From NCBI RefSeq assembly GCF_001278075.1, contig NZ_CP011340.1, positions 1,488,001-1,552,000 on the forward strand: a stretch of DNA of 64,000 nt, in the 5' to 3' direction. The DNA comes from Streptomyces pristinaespiralis. Its GTDB lineage: Bacteria > Actinomycetota > Actinomycetes > Streptomycetales > Streptomycetaceae. The translations under genes were made by a program, and so were the position numbers. The notes below the pieces were generated by a model. That model was not told the origin of the DNA. It was given only the letters and a program-made list of their open reading frames with translations, and made no database searches. How positions within the stretch are numbered: the first letter of the stretch is position 1; each line of letters starts with the position of its first letter. Below, in pieces: positions 951 through 52,180 of the stretch.

Positions 951-1010
951 CGTTCATCGGGTCTGCAGATCGGTGGACGCCGTTCATCGGGTCTGCAGCG
1001 CGGTGGACGC
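951..1010. repeat. 30-bp tandem duplication over the 3' end of the symporter gene
   Basis: Positions 951-980 and 981-1010 are the same 30-bp unit, differing only at two adjacent bases (AT at 969-970, CG at 999-1000). The inner copy contains the stop codon (984-986) and the last codons of the minus-strand symporter gene. The outer copy lies just past the stop. It looks like a local slippage or unequal-recombination duplication, not a mobile element. Confidence 0.8.
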
Positions 1011-2027
1011 CCGGGTCCCGGTGCGCACGGCGGGCACGGTGCGGTCCGGGTCGTGGGACCTGCGCTTCGCGATCACCGCGCAGACCATCAGCTGCATCTG
1101 GTGGAAGAGCATCAGCGGCAGCACCGCGAGGCTCGCCTGCGCCCCGAACAGCACGGTCGCCATGGGCAGTCCCGCCGCGAGGCTCTTCTTGGAACCCGCG
1201 AACTGGATCGCGATCCGGTCCGCCCGCCCGAAGCCGAGGCGCTTCGCGCCGAACCAGGTGAGTGTCAGCATCGCGGCCAGCAGCACCGCTTCCACGGCCA
1301 GCAGGGCGCCGAGCCGCACCGGGGTGACCTGCTGCCATACGCCGGCGGTCATGCCTTCGCTGAAGGCCGTGTAGACGACGAGCAGGATCGAGCCCCGGTC
1401 GACGTACCCGAGCACCTTCTTGTGCCGTACGAGGAACCGCGCCACCCAGCGGCGCAGCAACTGCCCCGCGAGGAACGGAACCAGCAGCTGGAGCACGATC
1501 CGCAGCAGCGAGTCGGCCGAGAAGCCACCGGCCGTGCCGCCCAGCAGCAGGGCCGCCAGCAGCGGCGTGAGCACGATGCCGGCGAGGCTGGAGAAGGAGC
1601 CCGCGCATATCGCCGCGGGCACATTGCCCCGCGCCATCGAGGTGAAGGCGATCGACGACTGGATCGTGGAGGGCACCAGGCACAGGAACAGCAGTCCGCT
1701 GTAGAGCTCGGGCGTGAGTACGGCCGGCTGGAGCCCGCGGGCGGCCAGTCCGAGCAGCGGGAAGACCACGAACGTGGCCGCGAGCACGGTGACGTGCAGC
1801 CGCCAGTGCCGCAGTCCGTCGAGCGCCTCGCGTGTGGACAGCCGCGCGCCGTAGAGGAAGAACAACAGCGCCACCGCGCCGGTCGACGCCCCGCCCGCGA
1901 CCTCGGCCGCCCGGCCGGAGGCCGGCAGGAGTGCCGCGAGGGCCACGGTCCCGAGCAGCGCCAGGATGTACGGATCGATCGGCAGCCAGGACGGCAGGCG
2001 CGGGGTGCGGCGGCTCATGTGCTCCAC
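984..2027 (-). CDS. Bile acid:sodium symporter (SBF-like) family transporter
   Basis: A 347-residue polytopic membrane protein with about nine or ten hydrophobic helices. The first follows LPIDPYILALLGTVALAAL, and the SBF-like landmarks FFLYGARLST, LVPSTIQSSIAFTSMARGN and FAGSKKSLAAGLPMA are all present. These belong to the YfeH/SBF-like branch, related to the bile acid:Na+ symporters; the substrate in bacteria is usually an organic anion and is unknown here. The start is GTG at 2027, with an in-frame ATG at 2018 as an alternative. The last codons and stop lie in a 30-bp tandem duplication. It sits directly downstream of the VMAP operon on the same strand. Confidence 0.88.
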   Translation of the reverse strand: MEHMSRRTPRLPSWLPIDPYILALLGTVALAALLPASGRAAEVAGGASTGAVALLFFLYGARLSTREALDGLRHWRLHVTVLAATFVVFPLLGLAARGLQPAVLTPELYSGLLFLCLVPSTIQSSIAFTSMARGNVPAAICAGSFSSLAGIVLTPLLAALLLGGTAGGFSADSLLRIVLQLLVPFLAGQLLRRWVARFLVRHKKVLGYVDRGSILLVVYTAFSEGMTAGVWQQVTPVRLGALLAVEAVLLAAMLTLTWFGAKRLGFGRADRIAIQFAGSKKSLAAGLPMATVLFGAQASLAVLPLMLFHQMQLMVCAVIAKRRSHDPDRTVPAVRTGTRASTALQTR

Positions 2028-2110
2028 ATTGCTTTCGGTTCAGGACGTGCCCTCTCCATGCTCCTCCTGGAACGGCCGATCGGGAATCCCGTACACCACA
2101 CTCACTGTCA

Positions 2111-5100
2111 TCACATTTCATGATGATCGTCCCACGGTGATGCCTCGCGGTGCGCGCCCCCCGCGGCCCGCCGTGCCGAAAGCCCCGCGAGTGCGCGGAG
2201 AGTGGGCTGTGCCCCGCGCATCGTGTCGGGGAAACGCAAGTCGAGTGCGTCGGGGAGGGTGTGCTTCCAGAAGTGGTGCAGCGGCTCGAGCCACTCCTCG
2301 TCCTGGCCCTGAGCGGCGAGTTCCCCGATCAGCTCGAGCTGGCGCGGCGCCACTTCGAGCACGAGGTGGCGGAACAGCGGCGCCGGGGGAACCGGCGTGG
2401 CCGCCAGGCCTTCGGGCTGCGTCCTCATCAGGAGCTCACACGCCTCCTGGCCGAGCAGGGCCGACTTCTCGTAGGCCCGCAGCAGGCTCCCCCAGCTGGA
2501 CAGACGCGGGCTCAAGGACTCCAGCGGGAGCGTCAGGGTGGAGGCGTCGCCCTCCGCGAGGCGGATGCGGATCTGCTCCGGCGAGTCGGGCGACCCTGCC
2601 ACGTCGACCTGGCCGTTCCACACCGCACACAGGATCCGGTGCAGGATCCGGCACCGGTCCTCCTCGGTGCCGACCAGCCAGTCGTCGCGATAACCGAGGC
2701 GCTGGCGCCAGTGCAGAAAGTCGTCGACGCCTGCGGCGTCCCTCGCCCCTGCCCACAACCGCAGCACCTGCCGCACCTCGGAGACATCCGTGAGGCTCAT
2801 GCCGCTTCGGAAGAGCACCACGGTGACCGACTCCGTGTCGACGGCCCTGAACTCCGGCACCGTCCCGTACGGCAACCTCACGTCGCGCGCCAGGAGAGAC
2901 GCGACGGCCGAGTCCGCCGCGGTCTGCGGGTAGGTGACGAGAACCTTCAGCTGACCGGTGCCGTCGGGCTCGAAGCCGACCGGCAGCAGTCCTGCCAGCT
3001 CGTGGCGCAGCTGGTCGAGCCAGTGCGGGCCGACGGCGGTGTTCTCGTCGCCGGCCGCGGCCTGCAGCAGTACGCCGAGCGAGGGCAGGAGCGGGCGGTC
3101 GTCGAACGCGCTCGATTCGCCCAGCAGTCGCTTGACGCGCCGTTCGACGACCTGCTTGATCTCCTGGACGCCGGCCTGCGGCGAGCGGCGCACCGACTCC
3201 AGGGCACGCACCCAGTCGTGCGGCTGGATGATCCTGGCCAACAGGCCCGCTGCGTCCTGATGCTCCGGAAGGCCCTCGTGAGCAAGGAGCCGGCCGAACA
3301 CCTCGTCGTAGAAGGCGGCGAGCATCCACTGCGGCGGCAGAAGGTACCGGACGCCCACTCGATCCTGGCGGTAGAGCTCGTCGCGGCGCTCGACGAAGTG
3401 CCTGCGCTCGTCCTCCTCATGGCCGCGCAGCGCCTTGACCAGCTCGCCTGTCTCCCTGGTGGTACGCAGCAGCGACGGCCGCCAGCGCGACTCCTGGTCC
3501 TTCCACCCGCGGTGCCACTTCTGCCGGCCCCGCCACTCGTACCAGGCGTCCTGCTCGTCGAGGGTGCTCTGCACCTGAGGGTCGCCCCACCGGGCCGGTA
3601 CGAGCCCACCCACCGATCGTCTGATCGGCCGGATCTCCGGACGGACGGTGTCCACGCCCTCCACGCGTGCTGGATCGTGCGCACGGTTGCCGAGCACTCC
3701 GGCGAAGCCGAGCTCCGCCACCTGCTGCGGGTGCCCCGGCAACCCGGTGAGCAGCCTCTCCAGCCGGAACGGACCGACTTCGCCGATGAGTTCACGGGCG
3801 ACCAGGTCCGGCCGGAAGCGCTCGGCCAGTCGGGGGACCTCCACGTCCAGATCGCGCTGCAGGCGTCCGAGCGCGTCCTCCATGTCGCCGAGCCGGTCGC
3901 GCAACGCCCGCGCGATGGCCCTCGTGCCTCTCGGCAGCAGGTCCGGCGACGGCACGGTGGGAACCTCCCGTGCCCACAGCGGGCCGATACCGGAGCGGTC
4001 GAACATTTCGCGCACCCGTTCGGCGCCGTCGTCGGCTGCCCTGCCCGCCTCCTCGTCCATCGCCCGCACGGCCTGCGCCAGCAGCCGGTTCGCGACGATC
4101 TCCGCCAGATCGCCGACCGGGACGGACAGCGAAGCGGCCAGGCTGGTCGACAGGGGCCGGAGCCCGATCCCGGTCCGGGACACCGTGGCGCGCTCGACGC
4201 TCCTGTTGGCGAAGTTCGCCGCGAACGACGGGAACTCGTCCGCGGCGAAGTCCCGACCGCGGGACTCCAGTCCGGTGCCGATGAGTGATGTCACCGTCGC
4301 GATGACCGAGCGCCGCAGGTCGTCCGGCTGCATCCCTTTGCTCCGACCGAAGAGGATCGCGGTCTGGACCGTGGACGGGCTCAGCCTGACAAGTGCGTCG
4401 CCGGGGTACCGCACGGACGGTGAACCCCCGCTCAGGACGTCTCCGAAGTCGGCGCTCGCAGCGGGCGCGTTCTGGTCGTCGATCAGCCGTGCGAGGTCGA
4501 CCAGTGCTCGGGCGGCGTTGAGCTCCGCCTCGCGTCCGCCACCGGCGTCCGACGGGAACGCGGAAGGCATCACCACCAGTGGATAGATCCTGACATTGGG
4601 GAACCTGGACCTTCGGAACTCGTCACCGATCAGGTGGAGGAAGTCGTAGAAGACCCCCGCGCCGGTGCCGCCCGCGACGGAGAACGCCACGAACACGTCG
4701 CACCCGCGGATGGCCCGGCCTCCCACCTCCCGCAGGTCGCCGGCCGAGTTCGCGAGGGCTCCGATCGCCTGGCGCAACTGACCCAGCGCCGACCCCGGTC
4801 CCTTGGACATCGCGGCGAAGAGCGACGCCCTGCCCACGGTCGGCAACTGCCCGGCGCCGTGGCGCAGGGGTGCCACCCTCGGCTGCCGCTCCTTGGGCGG
4901 CAGCCAGTGACGGGTCTCCTCGTGGAGCGCGACCCGCAGCATCCGGGCAACTTCCGGCGAGCTGTCGTAGGGCGGGAGCAGCGCCTCGAGAACCCTCGAG
5001 TTACTGGCGTGAGCGGGGCGGTGGTTCCTCTGGACGCCGTCCGCCAGCCGCTGGATCTGCGACTCACTCATGTCCGCGTACACGAACTGCAGGAAGTCGG

Positions 5101-7000
5101 GCAACTGGAACGGCAGCCGACGGCCCCCTGCGACCAGCCTCGTGCCGTCGGGACCGCACAGGCCACTGCGCAGGGCATGTTCGAGAGCGGCCCCGATGCG
5201 CAGTCCGGTACCGCCCAGGCCGACGAACAGCATGGGCTGATGGACCAGGCCGAAGGTCGGCGTCCCCCCGCCGGCGCGCGGCGACGCTTCCAGCTCGGCA
5301 GGCCGGGGTGACCGCCAGGGCTCACCCTCCGGCGCCGGCTCCCGAGCTGACGGCGGCGGGGTGACGGGCGCGGCGCTCCCGGTTCCTGTGCCGGCGCCGA
5401 GCCGTCTCAGCACCTCGACGGGCACCACCGCGAAGGGCTGTCGCGCGGTGTCGAGCATCTCCTCCCCCTGCCCCTGCGGCGAGGGAAGCAGGGCCGTCGT
5501 GTCGCGGGTCCGTCCCGCGGACTCGGCAACGTAGGCGGACACCTGTTCGTGCACCCGTACGGTCTCCGACGCACGGATCGTTCCGAGCAGTACGTCCCGG
5601 ACTCCGGGGACGAAGTCGTACGGCGTGCGGGCGGCCTCCTCCGCGGCGCCGAGCTTCCGGATCAGTCCGCTGACGAACACTTCGGCGAGATGGGCGGGTC
5701 TGGTGCCCGGAAGCATGGTGTGCTGGACCAGCCTCATGACCGGCAGTGTGAGCGGCGCCGCCGCCAGATAGCCGGCGAGCCTGAAGGCCTGTGGCGAAGC
5801 CGCGGACCTGAACGCTCCGACCAGGTCGGCGGCGGTCGCTCCGCCCGCTTCCCCCAGTGCCGTGCCGCCGGCCCACGGCCGGCCGGGTCCGTCCCGTCCT
5901 CGCGTCGGCGTGGTGGCCACCATGGCGTCGATGCCGCCGTGCGCGGCGCCGGTGACCAGCCGGGCCCACGAAGCGAGCCAGTCCGGCTCGATCTCCAGCA
6001 CCGGCACGGGCATTCCGATCTGCTGTCCCGTGAGGGGGGTCGCACCGTACGGCTCGGCGATCAGGCCGGTGTTGGGGATGCCCGGCGCGGTGGAGTGGAC
6101 TCGGGCGGCCACCGGGCCGGCTCCCGTCCGGTGCCACAGACGCTGGGGCAGCGGCTGGAGGACGGCGAGAGGCCCGGTGCGCCCCCAGAGGCGGAGCACG
6201 TCGTGCGCCTCGCCCGACCACCAGATGTCGTCGACACAGTCGCTGACGACCAGAACCGCCTGCCTGCCGGACGGGTCGACCAACTCCCGCGGGCTGTGCA
6301 GGCTGTCCGTCGGCACGGCTCGTGCGGCGACACCGAGCGTCCCGTCGCCACCCCGTCCCAGGTGCCAGAGGCGCACGTCCCGGAAAGCGCCGAGACGTTC
6401 GAACAGCTCCCGCAGTTCGTCCACCAGCGGACGCCACACGGCCATGGAGGAACCGGCGTCCACCACGATCAGGAGACTGAGCCAGCGCTCCGGTGCGGGC
6501 AGCAGGAGCGGCAGGACCAGACGCTCGTCGGCGATACGGTCCGCGGTCGCCGTCTCGTCGAGAATCGTGCGGCGTGCCGAGGGCACCCGGCGTTTGAGCG
6601 GCCGGAGAGCGCGGAGCAGCTCCAGTCCACCGGGCAGGGCGGCGGCCGCAGGTGAGCGCACCGCCGACGCGTTCGTGAGCCCGCCGGGTCCGTCCGCTTC
6701 CGCGGGCTCCGGCGGATACAGGAAGGCGTCGTCCGCGGGCGCCGGGTCCGGCGCCGGGTCCTCCTGCCGGGGCGGCGCGCTCACGCTCTCATGGACCGGT
6801 TCGGGACCGGGGCCGCCCTGACCGGCCGCGTCGCCGGCCGGAGGGGCGGCATCGGCGCCGACGGGCCGGAGGTCGTCCCCGGTCACCGTGCCTGCCGCCT
6901 CGGCGATCCTGGCAGCGAGCCATACGGCCTCGGCGACCTCCGTGGCCGTGGCGCCGATGTCCGCGGCGTCCAGCGCGGCGACGAGGCGGTCGACGGACAT
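2111..7000 (-). CDS. SAV_2336/vWA-like region fused to tubulin/FtsZ-like GTPase domain
   Basis: A 1629-residue protein, last gene of the four-gene VMAP operon. Residues about 1-480 match the SAV_2336 N-terminal type. Within them, around residue 178, LLIVVDAGSSM resembles a vWA MIDAS strand with a degenerate DxSxS (D-A-G-S-S), followed by VLVVSDCVDDIWW. A Pro/Gly-rich linker leads to a tubulin-like domain: FVGLGGTGLRIG near residue 592 and AGGTGAGVFYDF near 779, corresponding to the phosphate-binding loops of FtsZ/tubulin relatives. From about residue 1000 it is a long, mostly helical, charged region of unknown function. ATG at 7000 lies 2 nt after the MoxR gene stop. Inference: a nucleotide-dependent assembly or scaffold component activated by the ATPase. 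The fusion of the two modules is unusual. Confidence 0.85.
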   Translation of the reverse strand: MSVDRLVAALDAADIGATATEVAEAVWLAARIAEAAGTVTGDDLRPVGADAAPPAGDAAGQGGPGPEPVHESVSAPPRQEDPAPDPAPADDAFLYPPEPAEADGPGGLTNASAVRSPAAAALPGGLELLRALRPLKRRVPSARRTILDETATADRIADERLVLPLLLPAPERWLSLLIVVDAGSSMAVWRPLVDELRELFERLGAFRDVRLWHLGRGGDGTLGVAARAVPTDSLHSPRELVDPSGRQAVLVVSDCVDDIWWSGEAHDVLRLWGRTGPLAVLQPLPQRLWHRTGAGPVAARVHSTAPGIPNTGLIAEPYGATPLTGQQIGMPVPVLEIEPDWLASWARLVTGAAHGGIDAMVATTPTRGRDGPGRPWAGGTALGEAGGATAADLVGAFRSAASPQAFRLAGYLAAAPLTLPVMRLVQHTMLPGTRPAHLAEVFVSGLIRKLGAAEEAARTPYDFVPGVRDVLLGTIRASETVRVHEQVSAYVAESAGRTRDTTALLPSPQGQGEEMLDTARQPFAVVPVEVLRRLGAGTGTGSAAPVTPPPSAREPAPEGEPWRSPRPAELEASPRAGGGTPTFGLVHQPMLFVGLGGTGLRIGAALEHALRSGLCGPDGTRLVAGGRRLPFQLPDFLQFVYADMSESQIQRLADGVQRNHRPAHASNSRVLEALLPPYDSSPEVARMLRVALHEETRHWLPPKERQPRVAPLRHGAGQLPTVGRASLFAAMSKGPGSALGQLRQAIGALANSAGDLREVGGRAIRGCDVFVAFSVAGGTGAGVFYDFLHLIGDEFRRSRFPNVRIYPLVVMPSAFPSDAGGGREAELNAARALVDLARLIDDQNAPAASADFGDVLSGGSPSVRYPGDALVRLSPSTVQTAILFGRSKGMQPDDLRRSVIATVTSLIGTGLESRGRDFAADEFPSFAANFANRSVERATVSRTGIGLRPLSTSLAASLSVPVGDLAEIVANRLLAQAVRAMDEEAGRAADDGAERVREMFDRSGIGPLWAREVPTVPSPDLLPRGTRAIARALRDRLGDMEDALGRLQRDLDVEVPRLAERFRPDLVARELIGEVGPFRLERLLTGLPGHPQQVAELGFAGVLGNRAHDPARVEGVDTVRPEIRPIRRSVGGLVPARWGDPQVQSTLDEQDAWYEWRGRQKWHRGWKDQESRWRPSLLRTTRETGELVKALRGHEEDERRHFVERRDELYRQDRVGVRYLLPPQWMLAAFYDEVFGRLLAHEGLPEHQDAAGLLARIIQPHDWVRALESVRRSPQAGVQEIKQVVERRVKRLLGESSAFDDRPLLPSLGVLLQAAAGDENTAVGPHWLDQLRHELAGLLPVGFEPDGTGQLKVLVTYPQTAADSAVASLLARDVRLPYGTVPEFRAVDTESVTVVLFRSGMSLTDVSEVRQVLRLWAGARDAAGVDDFLHWRQRLGYRDDWLVGTEEDRCRILHRILCAVWNGQVDVAGSPDSPEQIRIRLAEGDASTLTLPLESLSPRLSSWGSLLRAYEKSALLGQEACELLMRTQPEGLAATPVPPAPLFRHLVLEVAPRQLELIGELAAQGQDEEWLEPLHHFWKHTLPDALDLRFPDTMRGAQPTLRALAGLSARRAAGGAHREASPWDDHHEM

Positions 7001-7002
7001 CG

Positions 7003-7986
7003 CTACGCCGATGTGGCGCGCAGGTGACGCAACAGCTGATCGGCGAGTTCTTCCCGCCCCCGGCCGCCCTCGCGGGCGGCGTGGAAGGTCAGGTAGAGCG
7101 CGTTGAGCAGCTGATCCGTCGCCAGGTCGCCGTGGTTGCGGCGTTCCAGGAAGCGGTCGACGAGATCCACGGCCGTCTCGCTGATCTCGTCCCCGAGGCG
7201 GGCCCGAACGATCCGGGTGAGCTGTTCACGGTCGGGCGGCCTGATGTCGACGACGATGCAGCGGCGCAGGAAGGCGGGCGGGAATTCCCGTTCACCGTTG
7301 CTGGTGAGCACGATGACGGGAAAGGACCGGCAGCGCACCTGCCCGTCGCACACCGGGACCGGCGCTCCCCCGTCTGCCGTGCTCACATGGACGGTCGGCC
7401 GGCTCCGGGCCGCTCTCACGAGCTCCGGAATCTGGTAGTCACCCGACTCGAACACGGTGAGCAGGTCGTTGGGCAGATCGATGTCCCCCTTGTCGATCTC
7501 GTCGACGAGCAGGGCGCGTGGGCGGGAGTAGGGCAGCAGGGCGGTACCGAGCGGGCCCAGGGTGATGTACCTGCCGATGTCGATGTCGGCGTCGCCCTTG
7601 TTCAGGCTCACGTCGTGCAACCGGCTGATCGCGTCGTACTTGTAGAGCCCTTCCTGGAGCGTGGTCCGGCTGGTGACCGGCCAGCGCAGCACGGGCCCGA
7701 GATTCAGCTCGTAGGAGATCGCGAGAGCGAGAGTCGACTTCCCGACTCCCGGTTTGCCCGTGACGAGCAGGGGGCGCCTCAGATAGAGGGCCGCGTTGAC
7801 GAGGTCCAGCACGTCCGGGTCGGCACGGTAGAGCTTGGCCCGCTCGATGTCCGCCGGTTTCCAGCCCCCGACCACCGGCGGAACGACGGGTCCGTCGTCG
7901 AAGACACGCCAGCTGGGCGGGGCCGGGAGGGTGTCGATCCCGTCGTGCGGCACCTCGGTGCCGCGGAAGACTCGCCAGTCGCTCAC
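7003..7986 (-). CDS. MoxR-type AAA+ ATPase of the VMAP operon
   Basis: A 327-residue AAA+ ATPase. Walker A is GKPGVGKST (77-85), Walker B LLVDEID (159-165), sensor 1 TSN (228-230), and a paired arginine (241-242) is a candidate arginine finger. This is the MoxR-like class that typically works with vWA-domain partners. The GTG start at 7986 overlaps the stop of the upstream protease gene as GTGA in the frame that carries the real VMAP-C ending. The TAG stop at 7003 is 2 nt before the ATG of the vWA-tubulin gene. Such tight packing implies translational coupling and fixed stoichiometry. Likely role: an ATP-driven switch that remodels the vWA/tubulin partner or gates the protease. Confidence 0.92.
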   Translation of the reverse strand: MSDWRVFRGTEVPHDGIDTLPAPPSWRVFDDGPVVPPVVGGWKPADIERAKLYRADPDVLDLVNAALYLRRPLLVTGKPGVGKSTLALAISYELNLGPVLRWPVTSRTTLQEGLYKYDAISRLHDVSLNKGDADIDIGRYITLGPLGTALLPYSRPRALLVDEIDKGDIDLPNDLLTVFESGDYQIPELVRAARSRPTVHVSTADGGAPVPVCDGQVRCRSFPVIVLTSNGEREFPPAFLRRCIVVDIRPPDREQLTRIVRARLGDEISETAVDLVDRFLERRNHGDLATDQLLNALYLTFHAAREGGRGREELADQLLRHLRATSA

Positions 7987-10027
7987 CAGCGCTGCTCTCC
8001 TTTACCGGGTCGTCGTGGTGTTCTCTGCTCCGCCGGGAGCTGCGCCGTGGCTCCGTCCGAGGGCCCGGCAAGGGCCGGCGCACCGGCGTCGGGGGCTGCG
8101 CGGGTGGGGTCGTCCCACAGCAGAGTGAGGGCCCGCCCGCAGTGATCGGGGTCCTGTCCCCTCGTACGCGCGTCGATGCGCAGCTTCTTCACCAGCCTTG
8201 GCAGGTCGGAGAGCGGCTGCCCCGACATCTGCTGTGCGACCGAGCGCTGGAAGCGGTCACCGGCGCACATCCCGCCGGGCCGCCCGCCGCCCGGCGGGGT
8301 GCCGGCCCCCGGTGTCTCGTTCCTTCCCCGGAGTGTTCCGGGCACGAGGTCCGGGGCCAGATGGCGGCGGGGACACCCGCGTACAGTGCGGCCTCCAACG
8401 CCAGCTTCGCCGTCCCGCTGTCGGGCTGGTAGGAGATCCCCAGGACCGACAGGGACTCGGTGCTCATGAGGGTCGCGAACATCTCGCCGATGTCGCTGTC
8501 GTCGTGGCAGTCGACCCAGTCGACGATCGCGACGTCCTCGTGCGCCCCGGACTGGAGGCGTCTCCACCGGCTCACCCAGTTCCCGTGGGTCACCGGCGCC
8601 CGGTCCGACGCGCGCAGCACGACGACGAACATGGTTCCCAGCGGGGCCCAGGCATTGCCGAGATCCCATTCGTCCACCATCGCCTTGGCCAGCAGCGGAG
8701 TCGGCAGAGCGAATTCGATCACCAGGTTCTCTGCGTACTCCCGCATCTGCGCCACCGTCTGCGGCAGCATCTTGCGCACGTGGTCGCGCGCCTGACTGAA
8801 CGTCAGTCCGGTGTCGAGACAGAGGACAGGCACGGACTCGCCGCTCGTGTCGGTGCGCTTCCACATGCTGAGCAGGTAGCGACGCCGGTTGGACCCGAGC
8901 GGGGACAGCCGGACCTCGATGGACGAGTAGCGGGGTCCCCGCACCGGCTGCGAACCGACGGTCTCCTCGGGGGGTGTGTAGGGCTGCCCCAGCCGTGACG
9001 CGATGGCGGCGGGCAGGTCCCGGATCCGGTCGGGGACCCCCGTCGTCCCCGCCGGGTCGATCCGTCCCTGGTGGCCGCGGGACCCACGGGCCTGCTCGGC
9101 CCTGACCAGTTCGACGAGACGCACCAGTGGATGGACCGCTCCCAGTTGGGCGGGCTGCGCATCGGCGCATTCACGGACCAGCGCCGTGAAGTCCTCCAGA
9201 GGCTTGTCCGGTGCACGACCGAGTCTGCCGACCGCCTGCCAGTACAGCGCGTTGGGGTCCATGCCCAGCCCGGCGGCGGCAGCCACCAGTTCGCGGCGTT
9301 CCGCGTGCGACAGCAGCCGGCGATGAGCGGACTCGTGCCGCAGCTCTGTGACCAGGTCCCACAAGTGGTCGTCCGGCCGGTCCGCGTGCTGGTTGTCGGC
9401 CCACACGTCGGGGAAGCGATCGCGGACGGCGGAGGCGGGCAGCGCGAGCCCGCCCAGGTCCCAGCCGTCCTTGCGTGTTGTCGTGACCAGCCCCACGACC
9501 CGCCCCAACGTCGGGTCCAGCAAAGGCCCTCCGGACATTCCCGGGGCCAGCTCCCCGCCCTTGACCTTCAGCATCTCGTGGCCGTCATATGTGTGCGGTG
9601 ATTCGAACTCGACGGTTGCACCGCCCAGTTGGGGACTGCCGCGTTCGTACACGGCACTGAAGCCCGCGGCGTAGAGCCGGCTCCCGAGCGCGGGGACGGC
9701 ATCCGACAAAGGTAGCCACGAGTGGCCCCGCGGCGGTTCCGGCAACGTGATCACGGCAAGGTCCGGGTAGCGCCAGAGGCGCTCACCTTGGTGCTCGGCC
9801 GGCTCTGCCCGCACCGTCCCGTCGTAGTACCCGCCCGCCCACTGCACCCGGACACGGTCGGCGGTGCGGACGGAGCCCGAGCCGGCGCCCGCCGGGCTCA
9901 CGACATGGGCGCAGGTGAGCACACGTCCCGGCGCGGCCAGGAACCCTGTTCCGCCACGAATACCGTCGCCGCGCACGCGGACGACGAACTGCCCTACGAG
10001 GGTGAGGAACGATCCCAAGGCGTCCAA
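7983..10027 (-). CDS. Trypsin-like serine protease with VMAP-C domain (apparent frameshift)
   Basis: The N-terminus is a complete trypsin-like domain: catalytic His41 (TCAHVV), Asp89 (YPDLAVITL) and Ser165 (GMSGGPLL). A helical effector-associated-type region (about 195-320) follows, then a VMAP-C region from about 360. The first frame ends out of family at 8189. The conserved family ending, SDLPRLVKKLRIDA and LTLLWDDPTR, continues in another minus-strand frame that stops at 7983, overlapping the ATPase start. One missing base in the G/C-rich stretch near 8280-8345 would restore one 681-residue protein. It could be an assembly error or a real inactivating mutation. The TTG start at 10027 lies 6 nt after the Trypco1 stop. 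It is the likely effector of the system. Confidence 0.82.
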
Positions 10028-10033
10028 GTGCGT

Positions 10034-10387
10034 TCACTGCCCGGCCGTGGGTGCGTCCTTGTGCCATTCGAGACGCACACGGATGGTTGCCTTCGCTTCC
10101 GAGTCGACCAGCAGACACACCATGCGTGAGCCCTTGAGCGCCATTTCGAAACCGAGCTCGACCTCGGCCACATCCGGTGCCGCCGCTTCGAGCGCGCGGT
10201 GGACTTCTGCGGCGACACCGCGGATCGTGCTGCTGACCGCGGAGAAACTCAATGCCTCGCGCAACCCGACGTTGGCCGGCCCCTCGTCGAAGTCCTCTGC
10301 TGCCGTGTCGCCGTGAACCTGGCCCGCCCTGACCAGTACCGTGCCTCCGCCGGGCAGGTCCAGTTCGACGATCTCGGCATCCTTCAC
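10034..10387 (-). CDS. Trypco1 (CU044_2847-type) trypsin-co-occurring protein
   Basis: A 117-residue soluble protein beginning V-KDAEIVELDLPGGGTVLVRAGQ and ending with FEMALKGSRMVCLLVDSEAKATIRVRLEW. The predicted beta-rich N-terminus, central helix (STIRGVAAEVHRALEAAAPD) and two C-terminal strands match the trypsin-co-occurring domain 1 family, which is regularly encoded next to trypsin-like effectors in VMAP systems. The GTG start at 10387 is chosen because GGGGAG lies just upstream (10390-10396 complement). It is the first gene of the operon, followed after 6 nt by the protease gene. Biochemical function is unknown; an adaptor or inhibitor of the protease is a reasonable guess. Confidence 0.85.
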   Translation of the reverse strand: MKDAEIVELDLPGGGTVLVRAGQVHGDTAAEDFDEGPANVGLREALSFSAVSSTIRGVAAEVHRALEAAAPDVAEVELGFEMALKGSRMVCLLVDSEAKATIRVRLEWHKDAPTAGQ

Positions 10388-10600
10388 TGATCTCCCCCTC
10401 GACACAGCGGGCCACCGGAGCAGGTGGTCGTCCGGATGATTGTGGCGCATGGAGGTCGACCGAGTGGGCCGGTTGGCCGGATACGGGAGGGCGGCGCCGG
10501 CCGCCCGGCGTCGCGGCCGACGGGCGGTGGAGGACCGGTGGACGGTGGGCGACCGGTGGACGGGCGCGGACGCTTCCGGCCCGCGCGAGGACGGGCGGGT

Positions 10601-10613
10601 TAGCCTCTGCCGC
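10601..10613 (+). promoter_or_regulatory. Candidate -10 element for a leaderless LysR transcript
   Basis: TAGCCT at 10601-10606 ends 7 nt before the ATG at 10614, and no Shine-Dalgarno sequence lies between them. This is the usual arrangement of a leaderless Streptomyces transcript starting at or next to the A of the start codon. No convincing -35 hexamer is visible. The rest of the 226-bp divergent gap to the Trypco1 gene holds a 13-bp direct repeat (10533-10545 and 10551-10563). Confidence 0.45.
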
Positions 10614-11486
10614 ATGTACGACCCCACCCAGCTCCGCACCTTCCTGGCCGTGGCCCAGACGCTGAACTTCACCCAGGCCGCGCGCCGGCTGGGGCTGCGC
10701 CAGTCGACGGTCAGCCAGCATGTGCGCCGGCTGGAGGACGCCACCGGCCGTCCGCTGTTCAGCCGGGACACCCACAGCGTGGAACTGACGGAGGACGGCG
10801 AGGCCATGCTCGGCTTCGCCCGCACGATCCTCCAGGCACAGGAGCGCGCCGCCGCCTACTTCACGGGCACCCGGCTCCGCGGGCGGCTGCGGTTCGGCGC
10901 GTCGGAGGACTTCGTACTGACCCGGCTGCCGGAGATCCTCGAGGCGTTCCGCCGCGACCATCCCGAGGTGGACCTCGAACTCACCGTGGAGCTGTCGGGC
11001 ACCCTGCACAAGCGGCTGGAGGCGGGCCGGCTGGACCTGGTGCTCGCCAAGCGGGGCCCCGGCGCCACCCACGGCGAGCTGGTCTGGCGGGACCGCATGG
11101 TGTGGATCTCGGCCGAGGGGCTGCGGGTGGATCCGGAGCGCCCGTTGCCGCTGATCCTCTTCCCGCCGCCGGCCGTCACCCGGGCGCGCGCCCTGGAGGT
11201 GCTCGAACAGTCGGGCCGGTCCTGGCGCATCGCCTGCACGAGCGGCAGCCTCAGCGGGCTGGTGGCCGCCGCCCGCGCCGGTCTGGGCGTGATGGCCCAC
11301 ACCCGCGGCCTGATCCCGCCCGGGCTCGTGACGGTGCCGGACCGGGCGGGGCTGCCCGAGCTGGGCACCGTCGACTTCGTGCTTCTCCAGGGTCGTCGCA
11401 GGGACGCCGCCAAGGAGGCCGCCGAGGCGCTGGCGGCCTCGCTGCTGGCGGCGGGCGACCGGCTGCACGGTCCCGTGCCCGGCTGA
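10614..11486 (+). CDS. LysR-family transcriptional regulator
   Basis: A 290-residue LysR-type regulator. The winged HTH fills residues about 3-62 (LRTFLAVAQTLNFTQAARRLGLRQSTVSQHVRRLE), followed by the linker helix and a periplasmic-binding-like effector domain starting near LRGRLRFGASEDF. The ATG at 10614 is supported by the TAGCCT element upstream; an open frame extends 5' but has no better start. It is transcribed away from the VMAP operon. SBF-like symporters and LysR regulators are often neighbours in Streptomyces, so this may be the regulator of the symporter at 984-2027, now separated from it by the VMAP cassette. That link is inference. Confidence 0.9.
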   Translation: MYDPTQLRTFLAVAQTLNFTQAARRLGLRQSTVSQHVRRLEDATGRPLFSRDTHSVELTEDGEAMLGFARTILQAQERAAAYFTGTRLRGRLRFGASEDFVLTRLPEILEAFRRDHPEVDLELTVELSGTLHKRLEAGRLDLVLAKRGPGATHGELVWRDRMVWISAEGLRVDPERPLPLILFPPPAVTRARALEVLEQSGRSWRIACTSGSLSGLVAAARAGLGVMAHTRGLIPPGLVTVPDRAGLPELGTVDFVLLQGRRRDAAKEAAEALAASLLAAGDRLHGPVPG

Positions 11487-20012: not shown

Positions 20013-21551
20013 TCAGCGGCCCGCGGCCAGGACCTGTTCGATCGTGTCGGCCTCCGCTGCGGACTTGTCCGGCCGGTGGCGCAGCACCCGGGCGAACCGC
20101 AGGGCGACGCCCGCCGGGTAGCGGGTGGACCGCTGGAGCCCGTCGTAGGCGATCTCCACGACCAGTTCCGGCCGGACGCGCACGGTGAAACCGTCGTCCT
20201 CGACGGCCAGTTCCCGCAGCATGTCGGTCTGCCGGCGCAGCATCTCGTCGGTGAGGCCCTTGAAGGTCTTCCCGAGCATCACGAAGCCGCCGTCGGCGGA
20301 GCGGGCGCCGAGGTGCAGGTTGGAGAGCAGTCCGGTGCGCCGGCCGTGGCCCCGTTCGACGGCCAGGACCACCAGGTCCAGGGTGTGCACCGGCTTGACC
20401 TTGAGCCATGAGCGGCCGCGGCGGCCGGCGCTGTACGGCGCGTCCAGCGCCTTGACGAGGACACCCTCGTGCCCGCGGTCGAGGGTCGCGGTGAAGAACT
20501 CCTCCGCGGCGGCGACCTGTGCGGGATCGGACGGATCCTCGACGACCGTGCGCCGTACCCGCGTCGGTTCGGGGACGAGCCGGGCGAGGATCCGGTGCCG
20601 TTCACGGCCCGGGAGGTCGAGCACCGGCTCCCCGTCGGCGGCGAGGACGTCGAAGTACACGGGATACAGCGGCAACGTGGTGCGGGCGGCCTCGACGTCG
20701 AGGCGCGAGCCCACCCGGGAGGCGATGTCCTGGAAGGGGACGGGCCGGCCGTCCGGTGCCATCGCGATGACCTCGCCGTCGAGGATGAACCGGTCGCCCG
20801 TCATCTCCCGTGTCCGCTGGGCCACTTCGGGGAGCCGGTCGGTGATGTCGTCGAGGGACCTGGTGAAGATCCGGACATCGGAACCCTCGCGGTGCACCTG
20901 CACGCGGATGCCGTCGAGCTTCTCCTCGACCACGCAGGCGGCACCGAGGGTCCCGGCCGCCTCCGTCACGGATTTGGCGCTGTGGGCGAGCATGGGCTGC
21001 ACGGGGTTGCCGACCCTCAGCCGGAACTCTTCGAGTGCCGCCGGGCCGCCGGCGAGCAGCGCCGCGGCGACACGGGGCAGTGACCCCTCCAGCATGACGG
21101 CGCGGCGCACGTCCGCCGACGGGGCCCCCGCGGCCTTCGCGACGGCCTCCAGCGCGACGGCGTCCAGGGCGCCCTGGCGGACCTCGCCGGTGAGGAGCCG
21201 TACGAGGAACTCCTGTTCCTCCGCGGTGGCCGCCGACATCAGCCGGTGCACGCGGGTGCGGCGTTCCGCCTGGGCGCCGGGGCCGGAGACCTGGGCGAGC
21301 GCCGTGAGCGCGGCGTCGGCCTCGCCGACGGTGAGGGACGGCACGGCGGCGGGCGGCACGGACTCCTTGAGGACGCTCCACCCGATGCCGATGCGGCCCT
21401 GGGGCACCCGCCCGGCCAGGTAGGAGATGACCAGGGCGACGTCCTCCGGCAAGGCCTCCGCGAAGAGGTCCGCCAGCGCGGCGATCTTGCGCGAGCGGGC
21501 CGAGGTGGCGGCCACCTCACGGGACACTTCGGCGACGCGGGCGAGCAGCAT
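20013..21551 (-). CDS. ATP-dependent DNA ligase
   Basis: A 512-residue ligase of the archaeal/eukaryotic-like ATP-dependent type. The N-terminal half is the helical DNA-binding domain (IAALADLFAEALPEDVALVISYLAG). The nucleotidyltransferase core has the adenylation motif EEKLDGIRVQVH with catalytic Lys, motif III FILDGEVIAM, motif IV HEGVLVK and motif V WLKVKP. The OB-fold ends with RPELVVEIAYDGLQRSTRYPAGVALRFAR. It seals nicks using ATP, in addition to the essential NAD-dependent LigA carried elsewhere in such genomes. ATG at 21551. It is divergent from the PI-PLC-like gene. Confidence 0.95.
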   Translation of the reverse strand: MLLARVAEVSREVAATSARSRKIAALADLFAEALPEDVALVISYLAGRVPQGRIGIGWSVLKESVPPAAVPSLTVGEADAALTALAQVSGPGAQAERRTRVHRLMSAATAEEQEFLVRLLTGEVRQGALDAVALEAVAKAAGAPSADVRRAVMLEGSLPRVAAALLAGGPAALEEFRLRVGNPVQPMLAHSAKSVTEAAGTLGAACVVEEKLDGIRVQVHREGSDVRIFTRSLDDITDRLPEVAQRTREMTGDRFILDGEVIAMAPDGRPVPFQDIASRVGSRLDVEAARTTLPLYPVYFDVLAADGEPVLDLPGRERHRILARLVPEPTRVRRTVVEDPSDPAQVAAAEEFFTATLDRGHEGVLVKALDAPYSAGRRGRSWLKVKPVHTLDLVVLAVERGHGRRTGLLSNLHLGARSADGGFVMLGKTFKGLTDEMLRRQTDMLRELAVEDDGFTVRVRPELVVEIAYDGLQRSTRYPAGVALRFARVLRHRPDKSAAEADTIEQVLAAGR

Positions 21552-21740
21552 GCGGCCATCGTGCCCCGGTCGGGCGACGCACGCACCCCCGGCGCGGAGG
21601 TCCGGCCGATCAGCCCGGGACGGCCGGGCCGCGCCGCACACCCGGCGCGTACGGAACGGCCGGGTACAGTCTCCCCACGGTTCACCCAACTCCCCTAATG
21701 TGCGCTCGATTTGACCACTCGACGCACAGACAGGGGCCCC

Positions 21741-22799
21741 ATGGGAACGTTCTCCCGCGCCGCTACGACGACGGCCGTCGCCGCCGGACTCCTCGCCGCC
21801 GCGCTCGCTCCGGCGCAGGCGTCCACCACCGGCCCCGCGGACACCGGGCAGCTGCCCTACTCCGCCACGACCGGGGTCGGCGTCCACAACGCCTACGAGA
21901 AGTCGAAGTACGCGTACTTCGCGGACGCGCTCGACTCGGGCGCGGCGATGCTCGAGATCGACGTGTGGACCAACGCCTTCGGCAGATCGTGGCGGGTCTC
22001 GCACAGCAACCCGGTGGGCAACGACAACAACTGCGTGAACGCCGCCGTCGCCGCCGAGCTGCGCGCCAAGGCCCGCAACCAGGACCTGGGCGGCTGCCTG
22101 GCCGACATGAGGGCCTGGCACGACGCGCACCCCGGCCATCGGCCGATCCTGATCAAGCTGGAGCTGAAGGACGGCTTCCAGGGCGGTCAGGGCCGGGGGC
22201 CGGCGGCGCTGGACTCCCTGCTGAGGGCGCGGCTCGGGGACGCCCTGTACCGGCCGGCGGACCTGGCAGGCGGGCACCCGGATCTCGACACCGCGGTGCG
22301 GGCGGACGGCTGGCCGGCGCGTTCGGCGCTGGCCGGGAAGTTCGTCGTCGAGCTGATACCGGGCACGCTCGAGGAGGACAACCCGTTCGACTCGCTGTGG
22401 ACCGACCGGGAGTACGCGACCCATCTGCGCGATCTCCGGGCGGCGGGCCGTCTCGGCGAGGCGGGCGCGTTCCCCGCCGTGCACCACGCCGCGGCGGGCG
22501 ACCCGCGCACCCGGTACGCGGACCCCTCGATCCGGCCGTGGTTCGTCGTGTTCGACGGCGACGCGGGGGCGTACGCGGGCGGGACGGTCGACACCTCCTG
22601 GTACGACCGCAACCACTACCTCGTCGTCATGACGGACGCGCACGGCGTCGCGCCCGCGATCGACGGGACGAACCCGACGGAGCAGCAGGCCCGCGATCGC
22701 GTCGCGCTGCTGGCGGGACGGCACGCGAGCGTGGTGTCCGCCGACTGGTACCCGCTGCCGCAGGTGCTGGGCTCCGTGGTACCGCGGGGCGGTGAGTGA
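21741..22799 (+). CDS. Secreted PI-specific phospholipase C-like protein
   Basis: A 352-residue exported protein with a Sec-type signal peptide (MGTFSRAATTTAVAAGLLAAALAPAQA). The mature part begins LPYSATTGVGVHNAYEKSKY, where VHNAYEK is the first catalytic-histidine segment of PI-PLC-X TIM barrels. EIDVWTN supplies an acidic metal-ligand segment and VSHSNPVG a second histidine. This places it with the Ca2+-dependent phosphoinositide-specific phospholipase C-like group of Streptomyces. It may hydrolyse phosphoinositides or related phosphodiesters outside the cell. ATG at 21741 with a purine-rich AGGGGC just upstream. Confidence 0.82.
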   Translation: MGTFSRAATTTAVAAGLLAAALAPAQASTTGPADTGQLPYSATTGVGVHNAYEKSKYAYFADALDSGAAMLEIDVWTNAFGRSWRVSHSNPVGNDNNCVNAAVAAELRAKARNQDLGGCLADMRAWHDAHPGHRPILIKLELKDGFQGGQGRGPAALDSLLRARLGDALYRPADLAGGHPDLDTAVRADGWPARSALAGKFVVELIPGTLEEDNPFDSLWTDREYATHLRDLRAAGRLGEAGAFPAVHHAAAGDPRTRYADPSIRPWFVVFDGDAGAYAGGTVDTSWYDRNHYLVVMTDAHGVAPAIDGTNPTEQQARDRVALLAGRHASVVSADWYPLPQVLGSVVPRGGE

Positions 22800-23310
22800 C
22801 GGAGGCCGGAAGCCGCCCCCGGGGTAACGGCGAGTAACACTCGTCACAGACGGGGCCATGGATGCCACGGATGGCCGTTCGATGGTTTATCGTTCATCTA
22901 CACGTGGATGTGAATGGGGCACAGCCCCCGGACCTCGCCATCTGCGCACCGGGGAGACCGTTCGACCGACGCCCCCGTGGAGCGCATCACCCAGCGGCGA
23001 CCGCCGTTCGCACCACACCCAGTGACCGCCCCGGCCGGAAACCCCCGTCCGGCCGGGGCCTCCCCTTCCCCACCTGCCGCGCCCCCGGCCGGACGCCGTG
23101 CGGATGCGCTTTCCCGGATACCCGCCCGTAACCGGTCGGCGGTCCGAATTACACGGATATGCGGTGGCGCAAAACCCTAGCCATCCTGGCTCAATCGTTT
23201 CAGTCTTGGTGATGCAGGTCACACGCGCCACTGGCGTCGCTCGCGGGGCTCCTGTCCGTGACGACGTACGTGCACGAGAGCGGAACCGCGCAGCAGCAGA
23301 GGAGCGAGCG
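22800..23310. promoter_or_regulatory. 511-bp intergenic region upstream of the SsgA-like gene
   Basis: No supportable gene. Visible features are a short hairpin CGAGT-AAC-ACTCG (22831-22843), possibly ending the phospholipase transcript, a relatively AT-rich patch around 22870-22920, and AGCCA-TCC-TGGCT (23179-23191), a 5-bp inverted repeat in an AT-richer stretch that could lie at the SsgA-like gene promoter. GAGGAG 7 nt before 23311 is the ribosome-binding site. A long leader or an unannotated small RNA cannot be excluded. Confidence 0.35.
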
Positions 23311-25745: not shown

Positions 25746-25856
25746 GACAGGTCCTGCCCGATACCGGCATCCGCGTCGTCTTGCGTGTGAGGGTCGGTCG
25801 TGACCGGCCGGCCGGGAGTCGTGCAACCGTTGGGGTATGTGGGGAGTCGAACCGTC

Positions 25857-27296
25857 ATGCGGAAACGTGCCTTTGCCTGCCTCTGCGTTCTCCTGGCCGT
25901 TGCTTCCGCGTGCTCAGGCAGCAACTCCGGTGACAAGCCCGGGCGGCACCCGGCCGTCCCCTCCTCCACGTCCGACTTCGACGGCGACGGCTACAGCGAC
26001 CTGATCATCACCCACTCGGGCGCCACCGTCCACGGTGTCCGCGACGCCGGCGAGGTGGTCGTGGTCCACGGCTCCGAGAGGGGCCCAGACACCGCCCGGC
26101 GCGAGGTCATCCACCAGAACGACCTGGGACTGGGCAAGGCCGGGCAGGGCGGCGGCTTCGGCGCCCGCTCGCTCGGCGCGGACCTCGACAGCGACGGCTA
26201 CGCGGACCTCGTCGCGACAGCAGGCACGAAGACCCTCTTCGTCGTCTGGGGCGGCGAGCGCGGCCTGTCCGGGGACGGCGCCGCCCGGCTCACCGGCATG
26301 TCCCCCGTGGCCGGTGACTTCAACGGCGACGGTCACACCGATCTCGTCTCCACGGGCACCGATACGGACATCGGCACCCTGGCCCTCGGCCCCTTCACGC
26401 GCGCGGGCGAGCCGGAGCGCAGCGTCCGGCTCGACCTCGCCCCTGAGGGCGAGCCCTTCACGTCCGGGGACGACATCGCGACAGCCTCCGCCGCCGGGGA
26501 CGTCACCGGTGACGGCCGCGACGACCTCGTCGTCACCTGGTCGGTGTACGGCGACGGGAGCCACATCCCCCGCGCCACCGTCCTTTACCGGGGTGCCGCC
26601 GACGGCCGGCTCGTCAAGGGCCCGCGCTTGAAGGACGCCCAGGGCAAGGACCTCTTCGGCCGGGCGCCCGTCACCGCCGACATCGACAAGGACGGCTACG
26701 CGGACGTCGTCATGGGCCTCGCCTGCGAGATGCTCGGCGATCCCGTGCCCCCGGAGGGCGGCAGCCGGGTCGAGATCTCCTACGGCGGGCCCACGGGGCA
26801 GGGCAGCAGGCTCGAGCCGGTCCGTTTCACCGAGCGGGCCGCGCTGCCGGGCTCGCCGGAATTCACCTATTGCACCTTCGGCGACGCCGTGTCCGCCGGC
26901 GACACCAACGGCGACGGTCACGCCGATGTCGCTTTCAGCGGTCGGGCAGGAACGGACGCCGTGGGCCGCCCCACCGTCATCCTGCTGCTGGGCGGCGCCG
27001 AGGGCCTGACCACCCGAGGCGCCCGGCTCTTCAGCCGGCTCACCCCCGGTATCCCCGGATCCGACGACATCGAGGCAGACTTCGGCAGCGGGACCGCCCT
27101 GCTGGACACCGACCGGGACCAGTCGGCGGAGCTGGCGATCGGAAGCTCCGCGTCACAGGGCGGCAGCGACCCGATCGCCTGGGTCCTGCCCGGCTCCGCC
27201 CGCGGCATCTCGGCCTCGCACACCGTCACCTTGGAACAGGACGTCCTCGGCATCGCGCCCACCGCGGGCCGCGGCTCCTACGGCTTCGGCCGGTGA
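25857..27296 (+). CDS. FG-GAP repeat (integrin-like beta-propeller) lipoprotein
   Basis: A 479-residue exported protein. The signal MRKRAFACLCVLLAVASAC ends in a plausible lipobox (Cys19), so it is probably membrane-anchored. Seven FG-GAP/calcium-binding segments follow: DFDGDGYSDL, DLDSDGYADL, DFNGDGHTDL, DVTGDGRDDL, DIDKDGYADV, DTNGDGHADV and a degenerate DTDRDQSAEL. This is consistent with a seven-bladed propeller; the last blade has lost the canonical DGxxD calcium loop. Such proteins probably mediate extracellular binding; no enzymatic role is visible. ATG at 25857 has GGGGAG 10 nt upstream and begins the signal peptide. Confidence 0.88.
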   Translation: MRKRAFACLCVLLAVASACSGSNSGDKPGRHPAVPSSTSDFDGDGYSDLIITHSGATVHGVRDAGEVVVVHGSERGPDTARREVIHQNDLGLGKAGQGGGFGARSLGADLDSDGYADLVATAGTKTLFVVWGGERGLSGDGAARLTGMSPVAGDFNGDGHTDLVSTGTDTDIGTLALGPFTRAGEPERSVRLDLAPEGEPFTSGDDIATASAAGDVTGDGRDDLVVTWSVYGDGSHIPRATVLYRGAADGRLVKGPRLKDAQGKDLFGRAPVTADIDKDGYADVVMGLACEMLGDPVPPEGGSRVEISYGGPTGQGSRLEPVRFTERAALPGSPEFTYCTFGDAVSAGDTNGDGHADVAFSGRAGTDAVGRPTVILLLGGAEGLTTRGARLFSRLTPGIPGSDDIEADFGSGTALLDTDRDQSAELAIGSSASQGGSDPIAWVLPGSARGISASHTVTLEQDVLGIAPTAGRGSYGFGR

Positions 27297-51400: not shown

Positions 51401-52180
51401 CTATCGGAAGATGGCCATGGCCTGCACTTCCAGCACCGCCTCCTCGGCGTTCCAGTCCTGGACCTTGCCGAGGCAGCGGGCGGAGAACGTGCCGGACGGC
51501 ACCTCGTTGCGCAGCCCTTCCGTGGCGCAGGTGACCCGCACGCGCGGCCCCTGGGAGGCATCGTCGGGGTCGCCGTAGGGCGCGAGGAGCACCGTGGACT
51601 CGTCCGACCTGCTGATCTTGCGGAACCGGCCGCGGATGAGGACGAAGTCCTCGATGTCGCGCAGCCGTACGTCCTGCTGGGAGGACCGGCCCTCGCCGCC
51701 GGGCCGGTTCGCCAGTGCCCGGGTGAGTGCCGCGTTCCGTCTGACCGTGCCGCCCGCGAGGTCGACATGGACGATGACGTCGTTCTCCTCGAGCACGTCC
51801 ATGATGATCCCGATCACCGAGATGGGTTCCGCGACCTCCATGTACTTGCTGACGATCTCGCTGTTGTCACGTCTCCCGCCGCCGGCGCTCAAACCGAAGA
51901 CGGTGGCTCTGATGGTGCCGTCCTTGCTGTCGCTGGTCCGCTGCTCGACCTCCCTGCGCAGCGCCGCCGCGTAGCCGCGCATCTGGTAGTGGTCCATGAC
52001 GGACCGGTCGTGGAGGTAGAAGCAGATGCTGTAGGTGAGGTTGCGGGCCCCGCCGCGCCGGCCTCCCGCCAGCCGTGCGACGGCGAGGACGAGCAGCGCC
52101 CCCGCCCCTGCCGCCGTCAGGAGCCACAGCAGCATCCAGGGCCACCAGACGCTCCACCACATCTCAGTGAACACACCCAC
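51401..52180 (-). CDS. Single-pass membrane protein of unknown function, third gene of a vWA/PBP operon
   Basis: A 259-residue protein with one N-terminal transmembrane helix (WWPWMLLWLLTAAGAGALLVLAVARLAGG) and a soluble region containing LTYSICFYLHDRSVMDHYQMRGYAAALRREVEQR, ISVIGIIMDVLEENDVIVHVDLAGG and DIEDFVLIRGRFRKISRSDESTVLLAPYGDP. I recognise no family; the beta-rich second half may be a ligand- or lipid-binding module. GTG at 52180 follows AAGGAG and overlaps the end of the SBP-vWA gene by 17 nt, so it is translated together with it. Confidence 0.7.
   Translation of the reverse strand: MGVFTEMWWSVWWPWMLLWLLTAAGAGALLVLAVARLAGGRRGGARNLTYSICFYLHDRSVMDHYQMRGYAAALRREVEQRTSDSKDGTIRATVFGLSAGGGRRDNSEIVSKYMEVAEPISVIGIIMDVLEENDVIVHVDLAGGTVRRNAALTRALANRPGGEGRSSQQDVRLRDIEDFVLIRGRFRKISRSDESTVLLAPYGDPDDASQGPRVRVTCATEGLRNEVPSGTFSARCLGKVQDWNAEEAVLEVQAMAIFR

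Follow-up and report, generated by a model that had tools for sequence, protein, structure and literature searches.

Gene content and family assignment

Positions 2111-10387 of the window, the 64,000-nucleotide stretch of Streptomyces pristinaespiralis DNA that was analysed, are filled by four genes on the minus strand. Table 1 presents an overview of these genes, of the regions within their products and of the two flanking genes. An earlier note made from the sequence alone had proposed four such genes as a VMAP-type, NTP-dependent conflict operon, and profile searches now name each component and place all of the proteins in the families that the note had listed (VMAP-C, Trypco1, SAV_2336 and Tubulin_2). 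The gene starting at 10027 matches trypsin_2 (E 4.3e-19), VMAP-M7 (E 6e-74) and VMAP-C (E 2.5e-28), while the vWA-tubulin gene matches SAV_2336_NTERM (E 9.6e-145) and Tubulin_2 (E 2.5e-71); these family matches are far beyond chance.

Table 1. Features of the operon and its flanks, in window positions
Feature	Position	Strand	Evidence
SBF-like transporter gene, flanking, outside the operon	984..2027	-	PF13593 E 3.9e-96
Ancestral SBF-LysR spacer, kept left of the insertion; left junction near 2128	2028..2128	.	alignment of the spacers of G000, G424 and 12 relatives
vWA-tubulin protein, 1629 aa	2111..7000	-	SAV_2336_NTERM, residues 18-497; Tubulin_2, residues 591-979
Predicted second half of tubulin fold, model residues ~765-907	2525..2953	-	alignments with CetZ, TubZ and FtsZ end at model residues 816-883; inferred
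Predicted helical insert within the tubulin fold, model residues ~421-740	3026..3985	-	model secondary structure and span of tubulin alignments; inferred
GTPase half of tubulin module, residues 591-979; loops GLGGTG, AGGTGAG	4064..5230	-	PF13809 E 2.5e-71
SAV_2336-type vWA region, residues 18-497	5510..6949	-	NF041121; DAGSSM, SDC
MoxR-type AAA+ ATPase, 327 aa	7003..7986	-	AAA_5 E 2.2e-7, over cut-off
VMAP gene, second frame: end of VMAP-C; left limit approximate	7983..8310	-	VMAP-C positions 175-226, E 1.6e-11
VMAP gene, first frame, 612 aa: HtrA-like trypsin, VMAP-M7, about four fifths of VMAP-C	8189..10027	-	
Trypco1 protein (trypsin-co-occurring domain 1), 117 aa	10034..10387	-	PF19493 E 6.8e-15; NCBIfam CU044_2847 family E 1.3e-11
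LysR regulator gene, flanking	10614..11486	+	LysR_substrate E 1.1e-27, HTH_1 E 1.3e-22

The trypsin triad that the note had read as complete (His41, Asp89, Ser165) is invariant in alignments of 10 and of 28 relatives. The AAA+ motifs of the ATPase are likewise in place, with Walker A at residue 77 and Walker B at 158, and are preceded by WRVFRG at 4 and PSWRVF at 24, which are the WxhapG and PsWRxa motifs of VMAP-type MoxR proteins. The vWA region scores 483 bits against a cut-off of 200 for NF041121 and carries the MIDAS-like DAGSSM and SDC sequences; the [D/E]xxx[D/E]xxxa motif of the vWA N-terminal extension gave no plain-pattern match in the first 80 residues. A vWA-like part and tubulin glycine loops are both present, as claimed, but the tubulin part is larger than the note had it and matches a complete standalone tubulin of about 1,100 residues.

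Close packing of the genes, put at -4 to +6 nt, holds as the spacing between ORF ends (Trypco1/VMAP +6, VMAP second-frame stop/MoxR -4, MoxR/vWA +2). The -4 overlap exists only with the second VMAP frame; the first-frame stop at 8189 lies 202 nt from the moxR start. In the window the order is VMAP, MoxR, vWA, and it is identical in the relative G424, where the genes are linked and not scattered; the same order is found with a different type of VMAP in G235, G457 and G461. Profiles, motifs and gene order agree, and the features testable here strongly support the operon as a VMAP ternary system.

For the MADS protein MadB, the ATPase reaches 67 bits against an NCBIfam cut-off of 475, and a PADLOC run returned partial matches only, to the ATPase or to the trypsin. 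An ORF at 895-2121, which overlaps the vWA-tubulin stop by 11 nt, was rejected as a fifth operon gene: it is an arginine-rich reading without a family match, and the true neighbour is the SBF transporter at 984-2027. Elsewhere in the window lie an ATP-dependent DNA ligase (20013-22868, minus strand), an FG-GAP repeat protein (25800-27296, plus strand) and a solute-binding protein fused to a vWA domain (52164-53762, minus strand), for which no relation to the operon was seen.

The VMAP gene is interrupted in the assembly

The earlier note had taken trypsin and VMAP-C to share a single gene frame and overlooked a frame change near 8,270-8,310. The main frame runs from 10027 to its stop at 8189 and carries trypsin, M7 and VMAP-C model positions 2-180, while model positions 175-226 are encoded in a different frame that covers about 8270 to 7983. 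Against the PF20028 cut-off of 27 bits, the first frame scores 100 bits and the second 45. In 11 relatives (P0006-P0016) the gene is read through unbroken, the nearest being 96% identical over 94% of the query. A programmed frameshift as a conserved feature of the VMAP gene is ruled out, since P0006-P0016 keep one frame.

If the VMAP gene is interrupted in the strain, this copy of the operon is therefore probably inactive or uncoupled. The chances are evenly balanced, however, that the frame change is an assembly error and that the operon of the strain is intact. Around the change the sequence is repetitive and very rich in G+C, beyond it the gene hardly differs from P0006, and the assembly of G424 has several probable errors of a like kind. 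Against an error stands the low rate of frame breaks nearby. When the ORFs of two relatives were used as probes on the neighbouring genes, frame breaks were flagged in 1/36 and 0/34 genes of the window genome as against 6/41 and 2/40 genes of G424, and the sole window-genome flag concerns a doubtful ORF that is flagged in G424 too. In-alignment stops numbered 7 and 6 in the window genome and 6 and 3 in G424. The window assembly is not rich in frame breaks.

The closest other operons are also interrupted, namely those of G424 (MoxR and vWA-tubulin) and of S. peucetius, as judged from its protein P0025, in which most of the vWA part is missing. The MoxR and vWA-tubulin genes of G424 (L121:4219-10059) each match in two frames, and because the flanking FdhD gene is broken in the same way, that assembly probably has indel errors. 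Two further genes match in two pieces in different frames, through error or decay: the SBF gene of G304 (L171:14045-14955) and the AMP-ligase gene of G302 (L170:8216-10029).

Insertion site and probable allele replacement

The window genome (G000) is assembled as one contig of 8,532,592 bases, and in it the operon separates the SBF transporter gene from the LysR gene. The ORF of the latter is listed from 10440, and in most relatives the match sets in at residue 59, near 10614. The last codons and the stop of the vWA-tubulin gene lie inside the ancestral SBF-LysR spacer. A match to the transporter was found in 31/41 genomes, the window genome counted, and the site was fetched from 20 of the other 30. 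Nineteen of the 20 sites have SBF and LysR adjacent without the operon; the remaining one, from G304, yielded no LysR gene within the fetched stretch. None of the 20 SBF stretches holds any of the operon genes. In G424, the operon occupies the identical place between SBF and LysR, and the spacer is kept to about 2128 in G424 and G000. By these alignments, the operon is an insertion between the transporter and the LysR gene. With regard to window positions 2028-2128 and 10388-10613, the conserved spacer stays on the SBF side of the insertion, and the LysR gene has therefore lost its ancestral upstream DNA.

Between G000 and G424, dS is 0.81-1.09 for the operon genes, 0.09-0.22 for the flanks and 0.17 for the unlinked standalone tubulin; dN/dS of the operon genes is 0.17-0.38. 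Because the two genomes have a common junction, these values are best read as one insertion, after which the operon was replaced by a divergent allele. The alternative is two separate insertions at one point.

Distribution of the operon and its parts

MoxR relatives (E up to 1e-20) occur in 322/392 genomes of the genus and tubulin relatives (E up to 1e-40) in 65/392. Among 293 genomes of the order, the window genome is the one in which VMAP-M7 exceeds its cut-off, and there is one further weak match. At least 5 of the 65 genomes carry a vWA-fused tubulin (G000, G235, G457, G461 and, interrupted, G424), a count in which frames of 1,600 aa and above were checked for the vWA part. The VMAP operons of G235, G457 and G461 differ in type: where the window has trypsin and Trypco1, they carry EAD2 and an abhydrolase-EAD2 gene. 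A sixth fused copy was found in another genus (G265) among a sample of 394 genomes of the family, and the tubulin copy of G155 is standalone.

Besides G000, G424 and G235, no genome with both a fused and a standalone tubulin was found in these overlapping samples, the vWA check in the genus sample covering frames longer than 1574 aa. Both kinds co-occur in 3/5 genomes with a fused copy (p 0.03), or in 2/4 when the window genome is left aside (p 0.12), and two of these genomes, G000 and G424, are closely related; the association is weak and only suggestive. G461, a one-contig genome, has a fused copy and no standalone tubulin at E up to 1e-40; strict guarding of the standalone protein is therefore not general.

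The window genome also holds a second VMAP system (G000:C1:734917-743238; L119:1918-10239). Its VMAP-C protein shows weak caspase-like similarity (24 bits; cut-off 140) and has an alpha/beta-hydrolase-like neighbour, its MoxR is 49% identical, and its SAV_2336 vWA protein carries pentapeptide repeats.

Structure of the tubulin module

Over 63% of its length, the vWA-tubulin protein matches standalone Streptomyces proteins of about 1,050-1,400 residues. The GTP-binding glycine loops GLGGTG and AGGTGAG are kept in 18 fused and 108 standalone copies. Of the 246 columns invariant among standalone copies, 23 show relaxation in the 18 fused copies; the window copy deviates at 11. An inactive decoy is unsupported at the GTP loops, which are kept.

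Turning to the remainder of the module, the structural model suggests a whole tubulin fold that is split by a helical insert (Table 1). By sequence, the last 186- and 629-residue pieces gave no Pfam match up to E 1 for a second tubulin half, and the tubulin profile gave no match among PDB sequences up to E 0.1. For the model of P0006, the VMAP relative, matches to the trypsin half take up the Foldseek and VIA-align lists, so that VMAP-C was barely probed.

Exchange with standalone tubulin genes

The standalone tubulin of the window genome (C1:2157068) is 70% identical over the module. A careful tubulin tree was made from 33 hand-chosen rows, of which 13 were fused copies and 20 standalone; G424, P0120 and P0121, which are long rows, were omitted. 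On this tree, supported branches force all of the 7 changes that the fused copies require; these copies form one clade in 0/200 bootstrap trees, and the AU test rejects such a clade (p 8e-43). Quick trees of 79 and 121 rows concur with 7 and 5 forced changes. The window tubulin clusters with standalone tubulins from its own genome, from G424 and from S. xantholiticus. The vWA tree (17 rows, with a long-branch warning) falls into two deep groups that hold their tubulins crosswise: P0027 and P0120 go with the window by vWA and elsewhere by tubulin, and P0042 and P0052 do the converse. Since P0027 and the trypsin-VMAP protein P0010 come from one strain, the backbone of P0027 is of the window's type. 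On this phylogenetic evidence, the operons took the tubulin module from standalone genes repeatedly, and the module has been exchanged more than once.

In G235, the fused copy (L198:9100-12192) and the standalone copy (L199:8930-12028) lie 1.9 Mb apart and share runs of 470, 245 and 237 nt without a single difference; in 99.9% of codon shuffles the runs do not exceed 130. These runs are likely to reflect recent gene conversion. In the window genome, the same comparison found no recent conversion tract, the longest run being 29 nt and the shuffle median 28. Gene conversion between old fused and standalone copies, with no repeated capture of whole modules, is a tentative alternative whose prospects fall somewhat short of even. 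It would account for the mosaic in G235, where the identical runs stand beside blocks of about 60% identity, but the crosswise tubulins of the two deep vWA groups would need exchange of most of the module, a point that is subject to the long-branch warning on that tree. Recombination of this kind may keep the fused module like the standalone tubulins, which would suit a decoy or a co-assembling subunit.

The standalone tubulin of the window genome has its own conserved gene set (L120, G000:C1:2150000-2168000), which recurs around the standalone tubulins of other genomes. Alongside the tubulin, the set encodes a vWA protein, a membrane protein of the PycTM type (E 1.8e-11), a P-loop-like protein of 772 aa and two further proteins without a family assignment.

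Proposed working

Taking together the domains, gene order, site, allele divergence, repeated tubulin exchange and the interruption in the assembly, we favour, with a probability of about 0.4, a VMAP-type MoxR-vWA ternary conflict operon that is held as a replaceable allele at one chromosomal site and works by tubulin sensing, MoxR relay and protease activation. The tubulin module presented by the vWA protein would bind GTP and would either assemble tubulin-like polymers or monitor their state. Disturbance by an invader would then be passed by the vWA-MoxR chaperone pair to VMAP-C, which would free the HtrA-like trypsin to cut cell proteins, so that the infected hypha may be stopped or killed. 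Trypco1 would serve as a partner of the protease. No experimental test of this type of operon was found in the open-access literature.

Two routes have been put forward in print. In the route of Kaur et al., as restated in the available text of PMC10907252, VMAP senses and its peptidase cuts the vWA protein, thereby freeing effectors; the same source proposes the reverse, in which the vWA protein is the sensor and the VMAP peptidase the acting component. The route of the earlier note (vWA/tubulin senses, the ATPase relays and the protease fires) is the latter proposal, one of two published hypotheses. We lean to the vWA/tubulin-sensor route because the module keeps its GTP loops and has repeatedly been matched to a protein that cells of the group also make; the module would then be a bait or a co-assembling sensor, with vWA sensing and the protease acting. 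The occurrence of vWA-MoxR-VMAP genes near CRISPR loci, together with vWA-related systems with tubulin domains, as described in the part of PMC10910872 that was available, also points to a conflict role.

A working that draws on the first of the published routes is somewhat unlikely: the variable VMAP-M7 region would detect the invader, the complex would be remodelled by MoxR, and trypsin would cut the vWA protein, the released tubulin being an effector that disturbs filaments or walls off the invader. According to the available text of PMC7159879, the invader may be contacted by VMAP-M regions, and the effectors borne by vWA proteins include rare FtsZ/tubulin domains; the cleavage route is the one restated in PMC10907252. 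VMAP-M7 is also rare, as a variable sensor might be, with its single genome over the cut-off. The kept GTP loops and the closeness to standalone tubulins, however, fit a bait or a co-assembling part at least equally well.

A more specific version of the favoured reading, which we hold to be unlikely, treats the tubulin module as an integrated decoy that was copied repeatedly from a separate tubulin system and can be kept matched to it by gene conversion. An invader that attacks or uses that tubulin would trip the MoxR-gated protease, and the site would behave as a compatibility locus, where one operon allele is exchanged whole for another. The logic is comparable to that of plant NLR immune receptors with integrated domains.

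The trypsin is of the HtrA/MarP-like class, some members of which serve quality control. A role outside conflict, in which the MoxR-vWA chaperone assembles a tubulin-based cell structure and the protease performs quality control, would fit that class of trypsin and the MoxR-vWA pairs that are assembly chaperones elsewhere (PMC7159879, in the text available), but it is improbable, as rare and patchy occurrence, operon allele divergence far above the flanks, tubulin module exchange and interruption in the strain are all unlike housekeeping genes.

VMAP systems are widespread predictions, with trigger and target still at the stage of proposals in the open-access papers. Repeated exchange with a defined standalone protein narrows the problem of sensing to a concrete one, namely whether the fused tubulin binds the cell's own tubulin-like polymer or reports on it. 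The fixed site with its replaced alleles, and an interrupted copy next to relatives that read through, offer natural material on cost and benefit. The predicted split tubulin fold, if true, would extend what is known of bacterial tubulins.

Comparison with known systems

This kind of system has already been predicted in print (PMC7159879). Within the open-access text available, no account was found of tubulin exchange, the conversion tract, a fixed site with divergent alleles or a split-fold prediction. The VMAP ternary systems in the available part of PMC7159879 have in common with the window VMAP-C, VMAP-M7, MoxR with two N-terminal motifs, the SAV_2336-type vWA, Trypco1 with trypsin and the order VMAP-MoxR-vWA, and rare tubulin effectors are mentioned there. 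The window differs from them in its tubulin exchange with standalone copies, its replaceable single-site allele and its interrupted VMAP gene. The DGR-linked VMAP systems, so far as the available text of PMC10907252 describes them, likewise have trypsin on VMAP, MoxR, a vWA protein as proposed sensor and, in some loci, Trypco1 nearby; their sensors are C-lectins diversified by a retroelement, whereas the module in the window is a tubulin.

The standalone locus L120 resembles the actinobacterial tubulin-containing GAP1-N2 GTPase systems of PMC7159879, which, in the portion available, pair a tubulin having a long C-terminal part with a nearby membrane vWA protein. In the window genome, nothing exceeds the cut-off for GAP1-N2 (PF20013; best 14.6 bits against 24). 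GAP1-N2 systems are described in the same portion as exclusive of VMAP systems in actinobacteria, whereas the window genome has the standalone tubulin locus together with two VMAP systems.

The trypsin differs from MarP (Rv3671c) and the HtrA/Deg proteases in being fused to VMAP-M7 and VMAP-C, and the NCBIfam MarP model gives it 36 bits, far under the cut-off of 250. Compared with CetZ, TubZ and FtsZ, the tubulin of the window is, according to the model, spread over about 850 residues with a large internal helical stretch, and it is fused to a vWA region.
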